64,000 nucleotides of DNA from Vulcanisaeta sp. JCM 14467 (lineage in GTDB: Archaea; Thermoproteota; Thermoprotei; Thermoproteales; Thermocladiaceae), in NCBI RefSeq assembly GCF_001316245.1, contig NZ_BBDM01000012.1:1-64000 (forward strand), in the 5' to 3' direction. The stretch's first letter is position 1. Each line of letters starts with the position of its first letter. The position numbers and the translations under genes were made by a program. A model generated the notes under the pieces. The model was not told the origin of the DNA. It did no database searches and saw only the letters and a program-made list of their open reading frames with translations. Positions 17,164 to 61,785 of this stretch are shown piece by piece.

Positions 17164-17936
17164 TGAACTCGGATAATTTCTTCGGCACCTCCATGCCCCA
17201 TTTCTCGAAGGCGTCCTTGATGCTTATTACCCTGCAGTCGCTTGTTCCATAAGTGGGGCTTAGCTTCTCGACACCGCGGCAGTAGTCTGGGTGTAGCCTT
17301 GGCAGGTTTTCCCAAACCCACCTTGCGTGATGGGGAACTTATCGACTAGGGTATCGAACATTAGCCATGCAATGAGCCTAATCTCGTGGAAGGCGCCGAG
17401 CCCAGTCCTGAGTGGGATGAAGTTTAGGAAGAATTCCCTGGCATTCATCTGGCCCATATCCTACTAGCCATGGCGTTCGGCAGCAAGTACCTGGCGTCCT
17501 CCGGTGCGAATCCCTCCCTAGCCCTCACGTATGTCTGGGACGCACTATCCAGGTAGTTAGACCATTGGCTTGCCAGGGCTGGCGGTAGTACGTAACGCAG
17601 CTGCCCCTTGGTGTAGTCCACGTAGCGCTGGCTCTCCTGCCAGTAACTCGCCACCCTATGCCTAATGACCTCATGCGTGAACGCCCTGGAACCCTCAATA
17701 AGCCAGCTAGCGCCCATGAACTCAAGCACGCTGTGGTGCCCGTCCCTGAGGAAGCTGGTTATCCTCCTAACCACGAGCTCCGGCTTCTCCCTAACCCTCC
17801 TCATGGCATCCTCAATTGCGTATGCCCTGTATACCACGTCTGTCATTGCCGCTATTAACTCCTCACTGCCCCAGGTAAGCACTAACTCAACCCTTGGCCT
17901 AATTATGTTAACCACACTTACTTTTACCTCCTGCAC
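17156..17936 (-). CDS. thyX: Flavin-dependent thymidylate synthase (two frame breaks)
   Basis: About 260 residues after repair. It converts dUMP to dTMP using methylene-folate-type C1 donor and FAD. The ThyX signature is present as RHRVASYWQESQRY near residue 90, with the preceding HHSVLEFMGASWLI segment that contacts FAD. Two single-base losses split the gene. The first, near 17456, needs one G (RIVGQMNAREFFLNFIPLRT). The second, near 17328, needs one C (KFPHHARWVWENLPRLHPDY). The last frame ends at 17156-17158. As a core gene it is an unlikely pseudogene, so these are probably sequence errors. In an organism with H4MPT, the actual C1 donor for this enzyme is an open question. Confidence 0.9.
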
Positions 17937-27461: not shown

Positions 27462-29983
27462 GTGTCCTTTGATAAAGCTGGCTACCTAATTGGTAGGAAC
27501 TTCGTATACCCTGATTACAGGCCCCAATTCCCCAGGCACTACGGCTATGCACTGAGACACTTAAAGGCCCAAGTACGGATTAGAACCAGTGACAAATCAA
27601 TTGAAGCTTAGCCGAGTACAGCATTGAAGTACCGCCGAGTAGGGATTACATAGAGCTTGATGCAGCTGAGGTGAGGATTACCTCGGTCAGGGTTGATGGA
27701 CAGGAAGCAAGGTATGAGTATGATGGAAAAACGCTCAGAGTATACGTTAGTCAGGGAGTTCATGTAGTCCAGGTCAGTTATGAGACCAAGCCAAGGAAGG
27801 GGCTTTACTTCGTACTACCTGATGAGCATTATAGGGATAGGGTGCCTATGGTCTGGACGCAGGGCGAGAGTGAGGATAATCACTACTGGTTACCAATGCC
27901 CGACTACCCAAACATTAAGTTCACCAGTGAATTATTAATAATAGTCCCGAAGAATTGGACCGCAGTCTCCAACGGAGTATTGGTGGAGACCAAGGACCTC
28001 GGTAATGAGGTGATGTGGCACTGGCGCTTGGATAAACCGCACTCAGCCTATCTAGTGGCCTTCGCAGCCGGTGAGTTTGAGGCTGTTAGGGAGGATTGCG
28101 ATGGAGTGACCATTGAGCACTACGTGCCGAGGGGGTACGGTGATAAGGCCCGTTTCAGCTTCTACAGGACATGCGACATGATTAGGTTCTACAGTGAGTA
28201 TACTGGCGTTAAGTACCCATGGCCGAACTATAAGCACGTAGCCGTCAGCGAGTTCATATATGGTGGCATGGAGAACACGACAGTGACCATAGTCACAGAC
28301 ACCACCCTACACGATGAACACGCCCACTGTCCAAGTTCTAAATTCCCATGTCCAGGTATGGAGACTTCACGTCAGATGGTTTAGTTGCTCATGAGCTTGC
28401 CCATCAGTGGTTTGGTGATTACGTCACGACTAAGGACTGGGCGAATATATGGCTTAATGAGGCCTTCGCCACGTACTTCGAGGCTCTCTACACCGAGCAT
28501 GCCAAGGGCCGTGACGAGTTCCTATACGAGCTTTACCAAAACCTTAGGAGCTACCTCAATGAGTACGGTAATAGGTATGCTAGGCCCATAGTCATTAGGC
28601 TCTACAGGATCCCGAGGAGATGTTTGATAGGCACACGTATGAGAAGGGTAGCCTGGTCCTCCACACGCTCCGTAACCTACTCGGTGATGAAGTATTCAGG
28701 AGGGGCATTAACCTATACCTAACCAGGCATGCCCATGCAATGCCGATACGGAGGACTTTAGGAAGGCTCTTGAGGAGGTTTCAGGGCAACCACTCGATTG
28801 GTTCTTCATGCAGTTCGTATACTCGGCGGGTCACCCAGTGATTAAGTATTCCTGGAGCTACGATGCAGGTAATAAATTCATAAGATTAAGTATTAGCCAG
28901 GTCCAGGGTGACGACTCGTACCCAGTCTATAGACTACCCCTTGAATTTGAAATCAAGTACCCAGGTGGTAAGGCCGAGATATTCAGGTTTGAGTTAAATG
29001 AGAGGGAGGTCACGGTGTATATACCGGCTAGTGAGAGGCCTCAGTACATTTGTATAGACCCTCAGTTTAAGATCGGTGTTAAGGCTGTTAATGCGGATAA
29101 GGGTGTTGAGGAGGCCATTGCGGAGTTAGGTAGCGACAACCTGGTGTGTAGGCTTGAGGCTGTTGATGCGCTGGCGAGGGATGGTAGTGCCAGGGCCGTT
29201 GAGGGATTGAGCAAGGCGTTAACTGGCGACTCATTCTGGGGTGTTAGGGCCGAAGCGGCTAGGGCGCTTGGTAGGGTTGGCACGGAGGATGCGCTTAAGG
29301 CGCTCCTCAATGCGCTAAATAATGAGAGACACCCAAGGGTTAGGCAGGCCATTGTGGAGGCCCTTGGGAACTTTAGGAACAATGATAATGCGGCTAAGGC
29401 GCTCGTGTCAGTCCTGGAGAACTCCTCGGAGAGTTACTACGTTAGGTCTAGGGCTGCGCAGTCACTCGGTAAGTTGGGGATGCCGGACTACGGTAAGTAC
29501 CTCATTAAGGCCCTCGACTACCCAAGCCATAACTACGTAATAACCCAAGGCGCGCTACAGGGACTCTCGGAGCTTGGGACCGACGAGACCGTGGACACAC
29601 TCATTAAGTATACGGAGCTTGGTAAGCCCACGTTGGTTAGGGTTGCGGCCACGCAGTCTCTGGGTAAGTTCGTAAGCGTTAGGAGAGTTTACGATAGGGT
29701 TAGGGAATTGCTGAGGGATCCGTATTACAGGGTTAGGTACGCTGCCGTGGCTGCTGTTGAGAGCTCCCTGGATCCGAGGTTCCTGGACATACTCGATGAG
29801 TTAGCCAGTAAGGACTTGGATGGTAGGATTAGGCGCTATGCGAGGGATGTGGCCAGGAAGATCAGGGATCAGCTGCAGAGGGGCGTGGAGTATGCTAGGT
29901 TGAGGGAGGAGATCGAGAGGATCAGGGAGGAGCAGAGAAGGATAATGGATAGGTTAGGTAGGGTAGAGACGAAGTATGGTTAG
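27462..29983 (+). CDS. M1-family aminopeptidase with C-terminal HEAT repeats (at least four frame breaks)
   Basis: About 840 residues after repair, beginning at a GTG ([20 protein letters not shown]). The exopeptidase motif is [10 protein letters not shown] and the zinc site is [13 protein letters not shown] with the third ligand in [14 protein letters not shown] later conserved Tyr region is [20 protein letters not shown]. The last 300 residues are HEAT-like repeats ([20 protein letters not shown] and similar units), followed by a coiled coil. Frame breaks lie near 27609, 28350, 28609 (one G) and 28737 (one G). The enzyme removes N-terminal residues from peptides and may act after the Opp/Dpp importer encoded nearby. 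The HEAT extension resembles that of tricorn-interacting factors and related M1 enzymes. Confidence 0.85.
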
Positions 29984-34132: not shown

Positions 34133-35526
34133 ATGGCGAACATGGACAAGTTATCGAAGTGTGTCGAACTACTTAGGTCAGAACCCTTAATGATTATTGG
34201 TAGTAATACTATGGGAGACTCATGTATTGAAATACCATTACCGACAAGAGACTTTGGATCTCACTTCTTAGATACTGGGCTTATGGGTAAGGCAATGGAG
34301 AGTATTGGGTTTTTCTTTAATGGAAAGGCAAAGGTTGTTTTCTCAGGTTCTACTGGGAGTATAAGATGCGTATTAACGGCCTATGGACTATACTCTCGAC
34401 AATTTAAGAAAGCCCGTGTTATTGCTGTTTCCCCATTTCATAAATCCATTGTTGATTCCATGTTCTTAATACTCAATGGTAGAGAGGATATTAATATTAG
34501 GTATGTTGGACCAAGTGATGAAGATTATTTAATAGATTACGATATGCTAATCCAGCCAGGAATCTTTAGGATTAAGCATTATATCAATAACGATAACTAT
34601 GATAATACATTAATTATAATTACATCACCTACCTATGGAGGTGTTTATATTAACGATGATTATGTAAATGCGATTAAGACACTTTTAGGAGATAATGCTC
34701 TTATCTTTATTGATAATGCGTGGGGCCTTGGGAAGCCAAATATTGAGATGTTCGATGTACTTGTTAGAAGTAGCCATAAGGTTGATGGTGGTCCACGCCC
34801 AATATCATTAATAATAAGCAGAAATGACGAGTTCTGGAATTACATAAGAATTGCATATTCAATGTTAGAATCAACATCACCATTAGTATGCTCATTATTT
34901 GAAACAGAACGTATTTATAGAATACATAAAAAAATGCGACCTCGCCGGTATTTTAAGAGAACTTGGAATTAGATTCATTGATTCGTTAAAAGATAATGGC
35001 CTTAAAGTCCTTGATCGCGTAAATAGAGAGGGATTTTTCATTGATCCAGTGCAAATAAATATCAATACTGGAAGTAAGAATGGTTATGATGTTCATAATA
35101 TATTGCTACGGCACGGCATAATACCCGTAAGGGCCGGACCTAGGGCCATTGAGATATTAATTAGCATTGATTTGCTACGGAAATACTATGATAATCCGTA
35201 TCTAATTAATGAGGTGAGTAATGTAATAGCAGGCGCAATTGATAATGCTGAACGCAGAGAAATTGAACCGGTATTTAATTATAACTATGATATTGAGGAG
35301 GATGTAACTGGTATTTTAAATAGACGAAAAATAAAATTTGTAGATATTAATGAATCCCTAGACGCCATAGCCGCTGCGCCGTTAGTCCCATACCCACCTG
35401 GTGTACCTGTGGTAATTCCAGGAGCAGTAATAACAAAAAAATGTTTTAGAATATATTAAGTCAATACGAACATTAGGAGGATACGTAATCAATGTTATTG
35501 ATAATAAGATACCGATTTACGAATAA
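34133..35526 (+). CDS. PLP-dependent enzyme, Orn/Lys/Arg decarboxylase fold (two frame breaks at A7 runs)
   Basis: About 464 residues after repair. VVFSGSTGSIRCVLTAYGLY, then VIAVSPFHKSIVDSMFLILN, SPTYGGVYIND, the cofactor Asp in FIDNAWGLG and the Schiff-base lysine in SSHKVDGGPRP follow the order of group III decarboxylases. The C-terminal AAAPLVPYPPGVPVVIPGA is the closing motif of that family. Two frame changes fall on seven-A runs at 34928-34934 and 35435-35441; reading six A in each gives a continuous protein ending INVIDNKIPIYE. It is the first gene of the C1 island and converges on beta-RFAP synthase. A tyrosine decarboxylase role for methanofuran (replacing MfnA) is an inference; arginine or lysine decarboxylation is the alternative. 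Confidence 0.7.
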
Positions 35527-40839: not shown

Positions 40840-41750
40840 TTACTTAAGAAATATGGACTTACCTATTTCATACGCAGCCCTAAAGTCAAAAATACCCTTA
40901 GGCTCACTCAACGCCTTCTTAATTAACTCAGCCTCTATATTATTCTTAAGCACACCAATCACCAACGCGCCAATCCCATATACACCAGGTATTATTTCCT
41001 TACCATCCATGTTAGGGTCAATACCTTCAACGCCATATGGCGGTATTGCATTCACGTCAGCAACTATCTTCACGTTCTTACCATAATTCTTAAGGATATT
41101 GAGGGGTAATAGTGTTACGCTGGGCGCCCTGTTGATAATACTATCGTTGAATCCTTAATGGCTTCACCAACCTGCTCAGGAGCCTTGGCCTCGACCCCCA
41201 CTACCTTATTCACTTTCAATTCATTATTAATTAAAGAAGCAATCCTCTGCGCCTTAGAAAGCTCTCTAGACGTAACTATCACCTTAGACGCACCCTCCAT
41301 TGCATAGAGCCAAGCGGCTGCAATACCCACGGGTCCCGTACCTGCCAGTACAGTTATTGTCTTGCCCTCAAAGGTGCCTAGACCGAGCTTCATTGATAAT
41401 TGTAGAGTCTTTAGCACTGCAGCACTTGCTGTAGTGTATGAACCCCTTGGATCGACTATTACTGATAGCTCGAAGGGTGGGAACATCCTCTTCTTTATCC
41501 TATCGACTATTGCGTTTACGGTGTCCAGGTCCTTACCATTAACGAATATTTTCGTGAATTTAGCACCTTTTGGGCCCCTCGGGAACATGGCGTCTGAGAC
41601 TATCTTATCAGCATCATCAGGAGTCACTTGCTCATACTTAAGCACAACGGCGTCAGGTATTAGGTCTATTACCATTAAAATGTCAAAGGGACTTGCATGC
41701 CTATCTGCGTCAAGGAATATAAAAATTGGTCTAAAGCTCTGACTTGACAT
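40840..41750 (-). CDS. mtdB: NAD(P)-dependent methylene-H4MPT dehydrogenase, MtdA/MtdB family (one frame break)
   Basis: About 302 residues after repair. FPRGPKGAKFTKIFVNGKDL is the substrate-binding region of the MtdA/MtdB family, and the Rossmann dinucleotide motif is ITVLAGTGPVGIAAAWLYAM near residue 130. The frame breaks near 41127, where one added G gives STGAPSVTLLPLNILKNYGK. It oxidises methylene-H4MPT to methenyl-H4MPT with NAD(P). The family is best known from methylotrophic bacteria; methanogens use the unrelated F420-dependent Mtd. A TATA-like TAATTTTTATTAAGG on the minus strand at about 41778-41792 supports a leaderless start. Confidence 0.9.
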
Positions 41751-46753: not shown

Positions 46754-47689
46754 ATGAGTATGCTTAAGATTGGTGATGTAATTGTTGAAGACACATTCGC
46801 TGAGGCATTCCCCATGTATGCTACACGCATTTTAATAACAGCCATTAACCGTAGGTGGGCATTAATAGCGGCTAGCGTGGCTACGGGCTTTGGAACATCA
46901 ATAATAGGTAGTCCTGGCGAGGCAGGTATTGAGGGTTTAGTCTCTCCAAAGGCAACACCTGATGGTAGGCCTGGCGCCCTTATTCAGATATACCACACCG
47001 ACCTAGCAAGCCTGAAATTAGTTACTATACAGAGAGTTGGTCAGTGTGTATTAACGGCACCGACCACGGCGGCCTTTGATGCCCTTGAGAATAGCCGTAG
47101 GAAGATGGCAGTTGGTAGGGCATTGGCGAAGTTCGGTGACGGCTTCGAGAGGCAGGGCATCATGTATAATAGGAAGGTGTGGAGAATACCCGTGATGGAG
47201 GGCGAATTCATCGTTGAGGATTCCTTCGGCATTAAGAAGGCTGTAGGTGGTGGTAACATATTGATAATAGCGAGGAATCAACAGGCAGGGTTAGAAGCAG
47301 CGGAAAAAGCCGTTAAAGCTATAAGGAAGTACGCTAGAGGTGTCATTACGCCATTCCCTGGTGGGATCGTGAGGTCCGGATCAAAGGTTGGCTCACTTAA
47401 ATATCCTAAATTAAGGGCAACAACAAATCATCTTTACTGCCCAACACTAAGGTCGGTGGTTAAGGACACACGATTACCACCTGATGCTAATTCCGTGTAT
47501 GAAATAGTCATTGATGGTCTCACAAAGGATGCGGTATTGTTGGCCATGGGCCTCGCAATAAAGGCGGCTGCATCAGTGCCTGGCGTTATTAAGATTGATG
47601 CCGGTAACTATGGTGGAAAGTTAGGGCCATATCTACTATATTTAAAGGAGGCCCTAGAGGTGGCTAAGGATTATGATGTTAAGGTTTAA
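46754..47689 (+). CDS. ftr: Formylmethanofuran:H4MPT formyltransferase
   Basis: 311 residues, intact. VIVEDTFAEAFPMYATRILI, then GFGTSIIGSPGEAGIEG, TPDGRPGALIQIYH, the long conserved VWRIPVMEGEFIVEDSFGIK and FPGGIVRSGSKVGSLKYP are all hallmark Ftr segments. It moves the formyl group between methanofuran and N5 of H4MPT. In methylotrophic bacteria the same subunit (FhcD) is part of a formyltransferase/hydrolase complex with the A, B and C proteins; here it leads an operon with those genes. The spacing to fmdDB is 12 bases, with a GGTGA element. Confidence 0.95.
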   Translation: MSMLKIGDVIVEDTFAEAFPMYATRILITAINRRWALIAASVATGFGTSIIGSPGEAGIEGLVSPKATPDGRPGALIQIYHTDLASLKLVTIQRVGQCVLTAPTTAAFDALENSRRKMAVGRALAKFGDGFERQGIMYNRKVWRIPVMEGEFIVEDSFGIKKAVGGGNILIIARNQQAGLEAAEKAVKAIRKYARGVITPFPGGIVRSGSKVGSLKYPKLRATTNHLYCPTLRSVVKDTRLPPDANSVYEIVIDGLTKDAVLLAMGLAIKAAASVPGVIKIDAGNYGGKLGPYLLYLKEALEVAKDYDVKV

Positions 47690-47701: not shown

Positions 47702-49433
47702 ATGCAGGAATTCATACTAAATACCGAGAGAAAAACTAGTCAGGCAATGTACATGGAGGGATATGGCAAGTTCTCGCCGGAATATTTACGTATAGTGAGC
47801 ACGGCAGAAATGAATCTCGAGGATGCTAAGGTGCTTGGAATAAGGGATAGAGTGAAGCTAATGTCTAGGGATGGAGTGAGCGTGATAGTTAATGTAAAGG
47901 TCACGGATGGGATTCCCCGTGGTACTATATTCCTACCACCAGGCCCCTGGGCTAATGTATTAATTACAGAGGGTACAGACGCTATTGGAGTTCCATCATT
48001 TAGGAACGAAAAAAATATTTGTTGATACAACGACAGAACCCGTCACATCGCTTGAGGAAATACTCAGGATACTTAGTGCAAAAGTACTGCAAATACCGCA
48101 TGGTACCGATATACCCCTCAAGAGTGGTGAGAAGAGAATTATTGAGAACGTTGCATGTCCGATCTGTGCTGAGCTCTGTGACTATCTAAAAATTGAGATT
48201 ACTGGTAATAGGATCGTGCGTAATATCGGTGGTTGCGCTAAGTCGGTATCTAAATTCCTCAATTATCATAAAGATAGGATATTAAAACCATACATTAGGA
48301 TTAATGATAAGCTTGTTGAAGTTAGCCTAGAGGAGGCCCTTGATAAAGCTGCTGATATACTCGTTAATGCCAAGTACCCATTAATTTACGGCCTCTCGAT
48401 TACAAGCGTCAAAACGGATGAATACGCAATACAGTTAGCCGAATTATTGAGAGGTGCCGTTGATAATCCAAGTACATTCTGCCATGGGCCAACGTCATTA
48501 GCCGTGCAAGAAGTCGGAGGCGTATTCACGACATTTAGTGATGTAATAAACTTAGCAGACCTAGTAATATTTTGGGGTTCCGATCCCATTAATTCCCACG
48601 TTAATCATTTATCAAGGAATATTGTGCCGAAGGGTAGGTTTATTGGTGGTAGGAAAGATAGAAAGATAGTAGTTATTGATATAAGGAGGACGGAATTAGC
48701 TAACATGGCAGACTTATTCATACAAGTGAAACCTGGCAGGGACGTAGAATTAATAACCGCACTTAGGATGGCATTGCATGATTTAGATATTGAGGTAGAT
48801 AATGTGGCTGGGGTTCCACGTGACATGGTTTACAAGTTAGCTGACATGATGGCTTCAGCTAAGTACGGAGTCATAATGTATGGCTTGGGGATAACCGAGA
48901 ACGGAGTAAAGCATAGAAGCGTTGAGGAGCTAATGAAGCTAGTCCAGGACTTAAATGAGTATACGAAATTTGCTGTGATGCCAATGAGAGGTCACTACAA
49001 CGTTGTTGGGTCCAATGAGGCTTCACTTTGGTTAACGGGATATCCATATGCCGTGGACTTCGCTAGGGGATTCTCAAGGATGTACGTGGGTGTCACTACC
49101 GCGATGGACTTATTAATTAATGGCGATGTTGATGCCGCGTTAATAGTTGGTCACGACCCCGTGGCAAGTTTTCCGAGAAAGGCCGTACAGCACTTGTCTA
49201 GGATACCGGTGATAGTCATTGATCCAAAATGGTCCTTAACCACGGCATTTGCCGACGTAATAATACCAAGTGGTATGACCGGAATTGAATGTGAGGGATC
49301 AGCCTATAGGATGGATAAGATACCAATTAGGATGAAGAAGATACTTGACCCTCCACCTGGCGTTCTCTGTGATTATGAAATATTAAAGTTACTTATAGAT
49401 AGAGTGATTAATAAGAAGGTTGGTAAAGCATGA
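47702..49433 (+). CDS. fmdB: Formylmethanofuran dehydrogenase subunits D and B, apparently fused (one frame break at A7 run)
   Basis: About 576 residues if the seven-A run at 48009-48015 is read as six. Residues 1-125 are subunit D (molybdopterin-dinucleotide binding): RDRVKLMSRDGVSVIVNV and FLPPGPWANVLITEGTDAIG, ending with EPVTSLEEILRIL. Without a stop or start codon it runs into subunit B: ENVACPICAELCDYLKIEIT with four 4Fe-4S cysteines, and the metal-ligand region STFCHGPTSLAVQEVGGV. The rest matches the B catalytic subunit to the TGA at 49433. B has no in-frame ATG, GTG or TTG between 48015 and its cysteine motif. The kept Cys residues suggest a redox-active enzyme that interconverts CO2 and formate, unlike bacterial FhcB. 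The Mo/W choice is unknown. Confidence 0.85.
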
Positions 49434-51156
49434 CGCAAATCCTGATTAAGAATGGGTATGTCTTTGACCCGCTTAATGGCATTAAGGGAGAGGTAACGGA
49501 CATAGCCATTAAGGATGGGAAAATCGTGGACCCAAGAGAGTTAAATCCGGAGGAGGGGATAACCGTAATAAATGCCAGCGGTAAGGTCGTAATGCCTGGA
49601 GGCATCGATATTCATAGTCACATCGCAGGTCCCAAGATAAATATTGGGAGAATGATGAGACCCGAGGATCATTATACCACGAATAAGCCTGGCGTATTCC
49701 CATACATAAGGGCTGAGACTGGGCTATCAACACCGAACGTGTTTAGGATTGGCTATGAATATGCGATAATGGGCTACACATTAGTTGCTGAGCCTGCTAC
49801 GCCGCCCGTTATGACGCGCCATACTCATCATGAGTTAAATGCCATACCTATAATCGATAAGATGGCGTACGTAGTTGTAGACTCAAATTGGATGCTCCTC
49901 GACTTAATAACGAATAATGACCCCAAATTGCTTGCTGCGTATCTATCATGGATTTTAAAGGCAACTAAATCCTACGCCCTTAAGCTTGTTGATCCAGGCT
50001 CTGACTTTGCATGGTTACTTCAGGGTAGGGGACTTGATATTTCTGATGAATTACCTGTGTATAACTTTACACCAGCGGACATTATTAAGAGTATTGCCGA
50101 GGCGGCCCAGGTGCTGAATTTACCGCATAAGCTGCATGTTCACTGTAATAGACTGGGATTTCCAGGTAATTATGCTACCACGCTTAGAACCATGGAATTA
50201 GCATTGAACATTCACAGGGTGAGTGAGGGATTAGCGCTGCATGTTACGCATGTGCAATTCACCGGCTATAAGGGCGATTCCTGGTCGACATTGGAAAGCG
50301 GTGGTGAGGAGATAGCTAAGGAGTTGAATAGTAATCCATACGTATCGCTCGATCTGGGGCAGGCCATACCTGACCGTGCAGTAACCACGATGACCGCTGA
50401 CGCGACATTTCAATTCGTGCTTTACCACATAATGAAGAATAAGTGGTATAGCTCAGACATAGAGTCCGATGGCGCATCGGGTATTGTACCGTATAAGTAC
50501 AAGAAGAAGAACTATGTAAACACTGTGCAATGGGTAATCGGGCTGGAGGTAGCATTATTGGCTAGGGATATATCACGCGTATTCATAGCCACTGATCACC
50601 CGAATGCGGGTTTGTTCACGGATTATCCATTAATATTTGCGTGGCTGATGAGCAAGAAGGCCAGGAAGATACCATGAAAAAGCTTAATCAAAGGGCGCTT
50701 AAGAGGAGCGCGTTACCAGCTATAGACCGTGAGCTTACGCTATATGACATTGTGTTTATGACTAGGGCATCACCAGCTAAGTTACTTGGTCTGGAGAAAA
50801 CGAAGGGTCATTTAGGCATTGGTGCTGATGCTGATGTGGCTATTTATGACATAGACCCAACACGCATAGACCTAAGTAAGGAGTATGATAAGGTTATTAG
50901 GGCATTTAGAAGGGCATGGCTTGTAATTAAGGATGGCGAGATAGTAGTTAGAAATGGTGAAATAATCAACCCATTAGTTAATGGTAGCACTTACTACATA
51001 AATCCGGAGGTCCCTGAGCCCCTGGAGAAGGACCTATATAGGTTCATTCATGATAAGATAAAGCAGTACTATTCCATAACGTATGAATCCTTCATAATAG
51101 ATGAGAATGAATTACTCAGGCCTAAAGCCGTGAATATACGCACATTATTGAGGTGA
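49430..51156 (+). CDS. fmdA: Formylmethanofuran dehydrogenase subunit A (one frame break)
   Basis: About 575 residues after repair, the usual length. It is a dinuclear-metal amidohydrolase that interconverts formate plus methanofuran and formylmethanofuran. Metal-site motifs are PGGIDIHSHIAG, KLHVHCNRLG, LHVTHVQFTG and DHPNAGLF. IESDGASGIVPYKYKKKN is a family hallmark. The frame breaks near 50669; one added G joins SKKARK to DTMKKLNQRALKRSALPAID. Its ATG overlaps the fmdB stop (ATGA). The C-terminal VRNGEIINPLVNGSTYYINP is typical. Confidence 0.93.
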
Positions 51157-52007
51157 TGAGGATGACCGTAACTTATCACCTAAGGCTTAAGGATAAACCG
51201 TCAGTGCTCGTGGATGCGAGAAGCATAACACCGGATTCCTTCGCTGGTAAGCAATTAAATGGCATACTCTCACTGAGGATTCTTGAGGGCGGTAGGCAGA
51301 TCACTCTGCAGGACTTATTCGATGTTGATGGACCAAGCGAGGCCCCTAAGGATCCGGGGGAGATTGCTATAGTGATTGATGGAAGCATAAATAAGATATC
51401 CTTCGTAGGCTATAAAATGAGTAAGGGTAGTATTACAATAAATGGTGATGCAGGGCACTTTATTGGGTATAGAATGAGGGGTGGTAGTATAGTTGTTCAT
51501 GGTAATGTGAGGAATTACCTAGGCGCCAAGATGAGGGATGGATCAATAGAGGTCTTCGGTAATGCGGAGCATTGGATTGGCGCTAAGTTACTCGGGGAGA
51601 AGCCAGGTAAGGGCATGAAGGGAGGGACAATAATAATACACGGCAATGCAGGTTCAGAAATAGGTAGTGGAATGAAGAGCGGTACGATAATAATCGATGG
51701 AGACGCTGGGAATAGCGTTGGCAACCATATGGTTGGTGGTACAATAATAATTAAGGGCAATTGCGGGCTATACCCAGGCCTGGAGATGAGTAGTGGTAGG
51801 ATCGTAATTAACGGCTCTGTTGAGGCCTTATTACCCAGCTTCTACGTGGACTCACTCATACAACCGCTAAAGGTTAAGGGTATCACGTTTAATAAGTCGT
51901 TCATGAGCTTCATAGGCGATGCGTTGGTTGGCGGTCATGGATTACTTCAGGTATCATATGAGGATAATAAGGAGCTGCTTGAGGAGTTTAGGAAGTTGCT
52001 TGAGTGA
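51156..52007 (+). CDS. fmdC: Formylmethanofuran dehydrogenase subunit C
   Basis: About 283 residues with the FmdC beta-helix made of repeated G-x3-G-x-x-M units: GDAGHFIGYRMRGGSIVVHG, GNVRNYLGAKMRDGSIEVFG, GNAGSEIGSGMKSGTIIIDG and GDAGNSVGNHMVGGTIIIKG. This domain, shared with glutamate synthase large subunit, links the A and B parts. The ATG at 51156 shares a base with the fmdA stop (TGATG). No frame problem. There is no separate fmdF, fmdG or fmdE gene in the operon. Confidence 0.93.
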   Translation: MRMTVTYHLRLKDKPSVLVDARSITPDSFAGKQLNGILSLRILEGGRQITLQDLFDVDGPSEAPKDPGEIAIVIDGSINKISFVGYKMSKGSITINGDAGHFIGYRMRGGSIVVHGNVRNYLGAKMRDGSIEVFGNAEHWIGAKLLGEKPGKGMKGGTIIIHGNAGSEIGSGMKSGTIIIDGDAGNSVGNHMVGGTIIIKGNCGLYPGLEMSSGRIVINGSVEALLPSFYVDSLIQPLKVKGITFNKSFMSFIGDALVGGHGLLQVSYEDNKELLEEFRKLLE

Positions 52008-52012
52008 TCATT

Positions 52013-52973
52013 ATGGGGCTTTCCATGAATAGGCTTGCCGTGGACATAGTTAAGGACCTAATAGACCATGAGAGGGAGTATAATGTATCAACATTAAAAA
52101 TCAATGGCGCAACAATTGTGGACACGGGGCTTAAGGTGCCTGGTGGAATTAACGCTGGACTTGCGGTATCGAGAATAACCATGGGCGGCTTGGCCTCAGT
52201 TAGCCTAGTGGTGTATGATGTAGATGGTGTTACCGTACCTGCGATGTCGGTATTTACGGATCACCCAGTGGAGGCGTGCATTCTATCGCAGCTAGCCGGT
52301 TGGAGGGTTCAGGTTAAGGACTTCCTTGCCAATGGCTCAGGGCCTGCCCGCGCACTTGCTAAGAAGCCAAAGAAGATGTATGAGGTCTATGGATATGATG
52401 AAACATCCGATGAGGCCGTGCTCGTCCTCGAAACAGATAAGTATCCAACGGATGAGGTTGTGGACTATATCGCAAAGGAGACTGGCGTGAAAAAAAGATT
52501 CCATTTACCTAGTCCTCGTTTCACCAGCGTCAATGGCTGGCTCAATACAGGTTAGTGCGAGGATTGTTGAAACCGGCCTCTACAAGTTGGATACGCTTAA
52601 GTTTGATTTAAGGTCTGTAATGAATGGATTTGGACTAAGCCCAATAGCACCGCTCCATAAGGATCCGTTAATAATGGCTGGGAGAACAAATGACATGCTA
52701 CTTTATGGCGGTATTACGTACTTCACCGTTGACGTTGATAATGATGATTTGGTAAAGGATGTAGTAAATAAGGCGCCGAGTTCCTCATCTAAGGATTACG
52801 GCAAATCATTTACAGATCTCGTAATGCAGTATGGTTGGGACTTCCTTTATAAGGTCGACCCATCAATATTCGCACCAGCTGTTATTACAATAAATAGCAT
52901 TAAGACAGGCAGGACATACACGGCAGGCCGCATCAATAAGGATATCCTTAAGAAGGCGCTTGGTCTTTCATGA
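52013..52973 (+). CDS. mch: Methenyl-H4MPT cyclohydrolase (one frame break at A7 run)
   Basis: About 319 residues after repair. It interconverts methenyl-H4MPT and N5-formyl-H4MPT. INGATIVDTGLKVPGGINAG, SRITMGGLASVSLV, TDHPVEACILSQLAGWRVQV and NGSGPARALAKKPKKMYEVY are hallmark Mch segments. After the run of seven A at 52490-52496 the frame is lost; reading six A gives KKDSIYLVLVSPASMAGSIQ and then VSARIVETGLYKLD. The C-terminal AGRTNDMLLYGGITYFTV is also typical. It overlaps the fmdC end, so it closes the operon. Confidence 0.93.
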
Positions 52974-59821: not shown

Positions 59822-60346
59822 TCACTTCTTTTGATAGAACGGATGGGCTAGCTTATCCTTCTGTGCCAATATATCGTCTATCTTCGGCTCACCCGTCATG
59901 GCCCTCTTAATAGCCAGCTTAACGGCTTCATAATTATATTGATAGACCTTATCGGGATCCTTAGCCGCTGGGTGTATGAATACGCCAGCAATTATTACGA
60001 CATCATCAACTATATCCTTAGGAATAACACCCTCAGCAACAGAATCAACAACGGCCTTAGCAACTGCGTACTGAGCAGGGCCGAAGATCATCTCTGCCTG
60101 CTTCATATTCTCAATAGTCACCTTAGGAACTATCAACGTGAACGGCTTAGCCGGCCAGTTCGGGGTTATTACGGCATATAATTTCGTATGTCCACGCGAT
60201 TGATGCGCAAGACCAAAAGCAAATGCGATACCTGCTGGGCCGTCCTTATCACCAATTATTAAGTCTATGTGTGCAACCTCATTACCTTCACCAACCAAAG
60301 CCTCACCAAACCTAATACCTAGCTTGGGCTTACTTACATTTGACAT
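59822..60346 (-). CDS. fae: Formaldehyde-activating enzyme
   Basis: 174 residues, intact, the normal length. It catalyses condensation of formaldehyde with H4MPT to methylene-H4[23 protein letters not shown] carries the catalytic His after the Glu, and GFALGLAH-type [20 protein letters not shown] plus the [20 protein letters not shown] core are hallmark features. The C-terminal ANPYYQK-like motif is LAHPFYQKK. It has its own strong promoter. It links free formaldehyde to the cyclohydrolase/formyltransferase pathway of the operon at 46.7-53 kb. Confidence 0.95.
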
Positions 60347-60491: not shown

Positions 60492-61785
60492 TTATACGAG
60501 AATCCTAAGATCAATGTCAACGCCTACATCCTTTGGGTGAAATCCATACTTAATCATCGTGAACTCCCTTCTAAATTCAATGACTTCTTTCCTCACATTG
60601 CCTGAGTCTTCACCCTTAATTAATACCCTAGCCATGAACTCAGCGATTGCCTTCATTTCGTCCTTGCCCATTCCGAATCTTGTCATTTCCTGAACACCAA
60701 GTCTTAGCCCACTTAATTCGCCCCTAAATGCTTTGTCCCACGGTAGTGCGGTTTTGCTTACGATTATATTAGCCTCCTCAAGCAATGCTGCCGACTTAGC
60801 GCCGCCACCTAATTTAGCAACATCGACAAGTACTTGGTGAGTCCTTGTAAATCCCTTATTTTCAGCAACTACGTTAAACCCTAACGCATGTAGCTCCTCG
60901 GCTAAGGTCCTCGCATTCTCGACTATTTGCTTAGCATAGGCCTCACCGAACTTCATCATCTCTATACCGTCACGGCTGTTGCGGCATACCTATGGTGATG
61001 ATAATTAGATGTTAAGCCGGGGAATACCGCCTTCTGTATTTTGCTAAATAACTCCTCATTATTTGTGAAAATGATCCCTCCTGAGGACCAGGGAAGGTTT
61101 TATGAGTTGATGATGTCATAATATCAGCACCTAGCTCAAGTGGATTTGGAAATGCCTTACCAGCGATTAAGCCAAGTACGTGGGCTGAATCATGAAGTAA
61201 TACGGCATTAACCTCATGAACAGCATCAAGAAGCTCCCTAACTGGGTGCGGAAATAAGTATACGGAGCTGCCCAGTATTACAATCTTCGGCTTAACTTCC
61301 CTTATCAACTTTATACTCTTATCAACATCTACATTAAATTCGTCATTATCCCAGGGTAAATTCATTACCTTTAATCTTAAGATACCGGGTGCGCCATTGG
61401 CTCTATGACTTATGTGTGAACCTGCCGTTATTGGTATTGAGAGTATTGTGTCGCCAGGCTCCGTCAACGCCGCATAGACTGCGGTATTAGCTATGGTGCC
61501 TGATATAGGCCTTACATCAACAAACTTTGCGTGAAATAATTGTCTCATTATATCTGTGAGCAAACCCTCAAGGGCGTCAATGTACTTAGTCCCTTGGTAA
61601 TACCTATTACCTAACGTACCTTCTGCGTACCTACCCTCCATGTCGTTTAGATAGACGTACTCCGCCAGTGGACTCATCACGTTTTCGCTGGCTATTAGAT
61701 TTATGGATTCCAGCCTACGCCATCTATTATGTACTTTAACAAGGTCCAAAACCCTACTTAGTGCTGAATCGATATCTAACGACAT
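60492..61785 (-). CDS. glyA: Serine hydroxymethyltransferase (two frame breaks)
   Basis: About 430 residues after repair. It interconverts serine and glycine with a pterin C1 carrier. [17 protein letters not shown] is the family start, [18 protein letters not shown] the substrate loop, [14 protein letters not shown] the PLP Asp region, and [17 protein letters not shown] the PLP lysine. One G is missing near 61078 ([20 protein letters not shown]) and one near 60969 ([20 protein letters not shown]). Archaeal enzymes of this type use H4MPT or a related pterin, and its location next to fae fits that. It ties the C1 pool to amino acid synthesis. Confidence 0.93.

Follow-up and report, generated by a model that had tools for sequence, protein, structure and literature searches.

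Two neighboring reading frames in the archaeon Vulcanisaeta sp. JCM 14467 resemble subunits D and B of formylmethanofuran dehydrogenase, an ancient W/Mo enzyme of CO2 and formate chemistry in which D and B are distinct proteins in well-studied methanogens. The question raised by this locus is whether the two frames encode two proteins or one. We analyzed a stretch of 64,000 nucleotides (contig NZ_BBDM01000012.1, positions 1 to 64,000; below, the window). The D and B ORFs are one frame apart and meet at a run of seven A's (A7) at 48009-48015. An earlier note on this DNA had claimed that the D reading enters B without a stop if the run is read as six A's (A6). The sequence confirmed this: with A6 there is one chain of 576 aa and 63.8 kDa from ATG 47702 to the B stop, as computed, close to the ~64 kDa product that had been proposed. 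We consider it very probable that the best explanation overall is a one-chain FwdD-FwdB catalytic subunit of a W/Mo formylmethanofuran dehydrogenase that starts at ATG 47702. The parts of the gene are as follows.

47702..49433, + strand: probable fwdDB fusion gene (D domain, ~30-aa linker, B domain), with one indel inside
47702..48045, + strand: FwdD (molybdopterin dinucleotide-binding) domain, from PF01568 and solved FwdD chains
48009..48015, + strand: A7 run, the site of the frame break; A6 scores best against nine relatives
48046..48137, + strand: linker of about 30 aa, free of ATG, GTG, and TTG
48138..49430, + strand: FwdB catalytic domain, from TIGR03129 and active-site motifs

The D ORF (47702-48025; 107 aa) matches PF01568 (E 4e-13) and has a Shine-Dalgarno-like motif, GGTGA, directly 5' of its ATG. 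The last ~12 residues of the D domain are encoded past the A-run, in the B frame. That frame is open from 47964 to 49430, and its ORF from TTG 47985 to 49433 encodes 482 aa and matches PF00384. TTG 47985, which is inside D, is the sole upstream start in the B frame; from it, about 52 residues would precede the B domain. As the earlier note had pointed out, ATG, GTG, and TTG are all missing between the A-run and the first Fe-S cysteine, a stretch of 50 codons.

The assignment of the B part is straightforward. The B frame scored 482.8 bits against TIGR03129 (subunit B), over the cut-off of 327.8. The domain retains four Fe-S cysteines, the W/Mo-ligand cysteine with its adjacent histidine (CHGP), and the arginine of MRGH, all of which have catalytic roles. 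An alignment of B homologues shows no variation at C58, C61, C65, C84, C166-H167, and R335 (numbering of the 482-aa frame), and CHGP and MRGH align, via homologue L003, with 118-119 and 288 of 5t5i_B. The D frame scored under the curated cut-off of NF042908 (subunit D; 59.5 vs 175 bits), a narrow model of the 'exception' type, and the frame scored is truncated. Intact homologues were also under this cut-off (fused, 126.5; separate, 107). Since the cut-off was missed, we named the D part a FwdD-like domain by homology from PF01568 and from the solved FwdD chains that it matched in a PDB search (2ki8, 5t5i_D, and 8rja_D). The adjoining fwdA and fwdC are both over cut-off (TIGR03121 and TIGR03122). 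No FwdF/FwdG-type ferredoxin electron-transfer subunits were recognized within this operon; many Fer4_9 proteins are encoded elsewhere in the genome.

We searched for D and B in a single frame in 61 relatives, then in 81 genomes of the class, and then in 398 genomes of the phylum, and recovered open frames spanning both domains. A scan of GTDB-representative contigs provided 80 further named loci. With the window left out, D and B HMMs run over all frames found 38 distinct homologues with D and B fused and 68 distinct ones with D and B separate. D, linker, and B are uninterrupted in 38 of the 38 fused homologues; in the window they are in one frame only with A6. The nearest homologues (63-65% identity in B) include L086 (Thermoproteota DRTY-1 bin 32), L087 (Guaymas B50_G16), and L088 and L089 (both Desulfurococcaceae). 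All of these are fused, and among the nearest relatives the linkers resemble each other in both length and sequence. The frame break of the window is absent from all fused relatives of its clade. Homologues with separate D and B and an overlapping start near 47985, an arrangement that the earlier note had set against the fusion, were not found in this clade; judged from sequence, D plus B is one open frame throughout it. The layout is not a matter of chance, because 38 distinct homologues have it in one open frame. The fusion reading of D and B is now supported by many intact homologues and appears to be right.

The linker has features for and against a single chain. In its favor, five distinct fused frames have a linker without ATG, GTG, or TTG. 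Against it, some such codon is present in the linker of 33 of the 38 fused homologues, with a Shine-Dalgarno-like motif in 15 of the 38, in a scan that discriminates weakly. Internal initiation may be possible in many fused relatives. In L004-L008 (from G016, G024, G013, G022, and G019) a 2x[4Fe-4S] ferredoxin-like domain is inserted in the B part of FwdDB. These ferredoxin-inserted proteins are 638-650 aa and come from a sister genus of the same family.

We compared readings of the A-run that restore the frame. A6 had a higher score than A3 and A9 against nine of nine close relatives (for example, 710, 716, and 711 for A3, A6, and A9 against L086), and the A6 reading aligned without a gap across the run with close relatives. 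We also called frameshifts across the window by tblastn with open-frame proteins from genus mates, several of which are a single contig, and from other relatives. There were 12 frameshifts, each backed by at least three queries. Four are near 41118, 48009, 50650, and 52490, inside an island of C1 genes described below. The other eight (14344, 15712, 17326-17451, 27584, 28324, 28605-28739, 60965-61093, and 62859) are outside it and break genes that have open orthologues in genus mates, which suggests a high indel rate of the assembly, with frameshift density measured on the window only. The source assembly is 81.6% complete and in 25 contigs. Passages of a published study describe an excess of split genes in the draft of Vulcanisaeta souniana (PMC11237513). 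An A7 run is also present at 52490-52496, at the broken mch, and another at 34928-34934, where two pieces resembling an Orn/Lys/Arg decarboxylase overlap. Because eight other supported frameshifts are in genes outside the island, the seventh A at 48009-48015 is most likely an assembly indel, as far as sequence comparison can tell. Indels throughout the assembly account for A7 better than a biological cause would, and the break between D and B is almost certainly a sequencing error.

Two of the genes around fwdDB are broken as well.

46754..47689, + strand: ftr, formylmethanofuran:H4MPT formyltransferase (PF01913/PF02741)
49430..51156, + strand: fwdA, split into two ORFs (49430-50677 and 50641-51156) by a second frameshift, near 50650-50710
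51153..52007, + strand: fwdC (TIGR03122)
52004..52973, + strand: mch, with PF02289 in two pieces; the third frameshift is at A7 52490-52496 or close to it
59822-60346: Fae, in the island

The order ftr-DB-fwdA-fwdC-mch is intact in L089 (fwdA, 574 aa; mch, 318 aa), and an mptN-like gene comes next on the opposite strand. In the window, these genes are part of a 26.5-kb island (34030-60510) that five genus mates lack. Collinearity between the window and the DNA of genus mates ends at about 34.03 kb and resumes at about 60.51 kb, and in G004 and G007 only about 0.75-0.8 kb separates the collinear blocks. GC content is 0.35-0.46 in the island vs mostly 0.45-0.52 in the collinear flank. One contig of another genus mate (G009:C122) has 65-72% DNA identity to several stretches of window 38.7-42.5 kb, and part of the island may be present in that genome.

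Besides Fae, the C1 genes of the island encode an MtdB-like dehydrogenase, Ftr, Fwd, and Mch. The island also has genes for biosynthesis of H4MPT (MptA, MptD, MptE-like, beta-RFAP synthase, DmrX-like, and MptN-like) and of methanofuran (MfnB, MfnD-like, MfnE-like, and MfnF-like), several of these biosynthesis matches being under NCBIfam cut-offs. No CODH alpha subunit was over cut-off in the genome, which is 81.6% complete. The island is apparently a formaldehyde-oxidation module, and its gene content suggests that its role is most likely the oxidation or detoxification of formaldehyde to CO2.

Three other readings of the frame break were considered. The frameshifts could be real mutations, and the C1 operon a set of decaying pseudogenes in this strain. 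DB, fwdA, mch, and at least one more island gene are broken, and five genus mates do without the island. However, the eight supported frameshifts outside the island are in genes common to genus mates, and the island genes retain long, open, conserved frames. We rejected a decay confined to the island because genes outside it are hit too, and we regard the pseudogene reading as very unlikely.

Slightly less likely still is that A7 is real and used, such that transcriptional slippage or programmed +1 frameshifting yields a short D as well as a D-B fusion. A run of seven A's could plausibly be slippery, and the A7 runs at mch and at the decarboxylase overlap (34928) fit this reading, but runs of at least five bases are missing near most of the window's other frameshifts. 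In addition, a short D product would miss its conserved C-terminal end. Because 38 of 38 fused homologues are in frame without any shift and unrelated frame breaks are numerous across the window, we rejected programmed frameshifting and slippage. Finally, taken literally, the sequence encodes D and B as separate proteins, with TTG 47985 as the start of B. This reading is hardly credible: D would be truncated, B would gain about 52 N-terminal residues that are partly homologous to the D C-terminus, and homologues contradict it, with B in separate relatives starting only a few codons ahead of the cysteines.

The one-chain FwdD-FwdB subunit appears to have a simple origin. On a tree of B domains (a quick tree with some long branches and no set root position), the fused or separate state needs 2 changes vs 31.7 in shuffles. 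The 38 fused rows that include the window form one supported side of the tree (SH-aLRT 97), and the window is nested within a fused Thermoproteota clade. A second fused case, one Undinarchaeales record (L164:5692-7422), is apparently of separate origin. In most separate relatives fwdD is directly upstream of fwdB; about 50 nt at most lie between its stop and the B domain, and the two often share a frame. Because of this proximity, loss of the stop codon is the simplest route, and the fusion likely arose in this way from an adjacent fwdD-fwdB pair, to judge from present-day gene order. The other MopB proteins that we recovered (frames among L009-L022) have the D-like domain after B. The earlier note had called the D-B order a circular permutation. 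The order is indeed reversed relative to the usual MopB chain, but the joining of neighboring fwdD and fwdB is simpler than the permutation of an existing B-D chain.

We examined a predicted model of homologue L086, built from an alignment of 18 sequences (pTM 0.85; mean pLDDT 81). Residues 111-150, including the linker, had block-mean pLDDT of 86-94. The best PDB matches of the model were FwdB chains (5t5i_B, TM to target 0.89), with formate dehydrogenases next, and no chain listed in the PDB search was a D-B fusion in this order. The high pTM and homology suggest that the N-terminal D would close over the bis-pterin cofactor bound in B, in the manner of the separate FwdD. D would be tethered in cis by the ordered ~30-aa linker, and the two halves would be made 1:1. 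Together with FwdA and FwdC, the chain would convert formyl-methanofuran to CO2, or the reverse, with formate as the intermediate. Given Fae, the MtdB-like dehydrogenase, Mch, and Ftr in the island and no CODH over cut-off, the reaction probably runs toward CO2, by oxidation of formyl groups that derive from formaldehyde. We infer both this direction and the electron acceptor.

Fusion of subunits B and D is already known, and the protein in the window is a further member. Passages of a 2024 study describe B-D fusions of Fwd/Fmd (cluster 525) in 16 Methanomicrobiales and 14 TACK assemblies (PMC11237513). As in the window, the same two subunits are fused, including in TACK archaea. These passages give no domain order, linker, or mechanism, and the Methanomicrobiales cases could be B-D or D-B (PMC11237513). 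The statement of the earlier note that D is a separate protein in Fmd/Fwd holds for 5t5i and fails for these B-D fusions (PMC11237513) and for an FmdC-D fusion (9sw6). In the open-licence literature we found no description of the N-terminal D, the conserved linker, or the ferredoxin-inserted variant. On balance, and with some reserve, we favor the view that a large Thermoproteota clade usually has, as its Fwd catalytic subunit, an independently evolved MopB-type single chain with an N-terminal cofactor cap, in reverse order to formate dehydrogenases, including the sister-genus form with the 2x[4Fe-4S] ferredoxin-like insert in B. If the insert is what it seems, electron transfer would be built into the same chain. 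The single chain, probably heat-stable, could be a scaffold for studies of CO2 and formate chemistry. There is also a caution: frameshifted drafts hide such fusions, and automatic annotation would give two truncated genes here.

In bacterial FhcB the metal site has been lost, and the protein is not known to have a D partner. It has the B-domain fold (PDB 6s6y, formyltransferase/hydrolase complex; TM to target 0.74 for L086), and, unlike FhcB, the window protein has retained the catalytic motifs and D. The W-Fwd of Methanothermobacter wolfei (5t5i) has the same two domains and the same Fe-S cysteines, Cys-His, and Arg motifs. However, its FwdB and FwdD are two separate chains, whereas the window has one chain with D first. 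In the FmdC-FmdD fusion (PDB 9sw6, chain K), D is, as here, a mobile module joined to a partner in the complex, but it is at the C-terminus of subunit C rather than on B. Formate dehydrogenases FdhF and FdhA, like the window protein, have B- and D-homologous domains on one chain. Their D-like domain IV is C-terminal and that of the window protein is N-terminal; that is, the order in which a pterin-capping domain and the catalytic domain are fused can be the opposite of that in formate dehydrogenase. A fusion of FwdB and FwdD has been proposed at the base of the formate dehydrogenases (PMC7331816), and the D-B chain is a natural comparison for this proposed origin.
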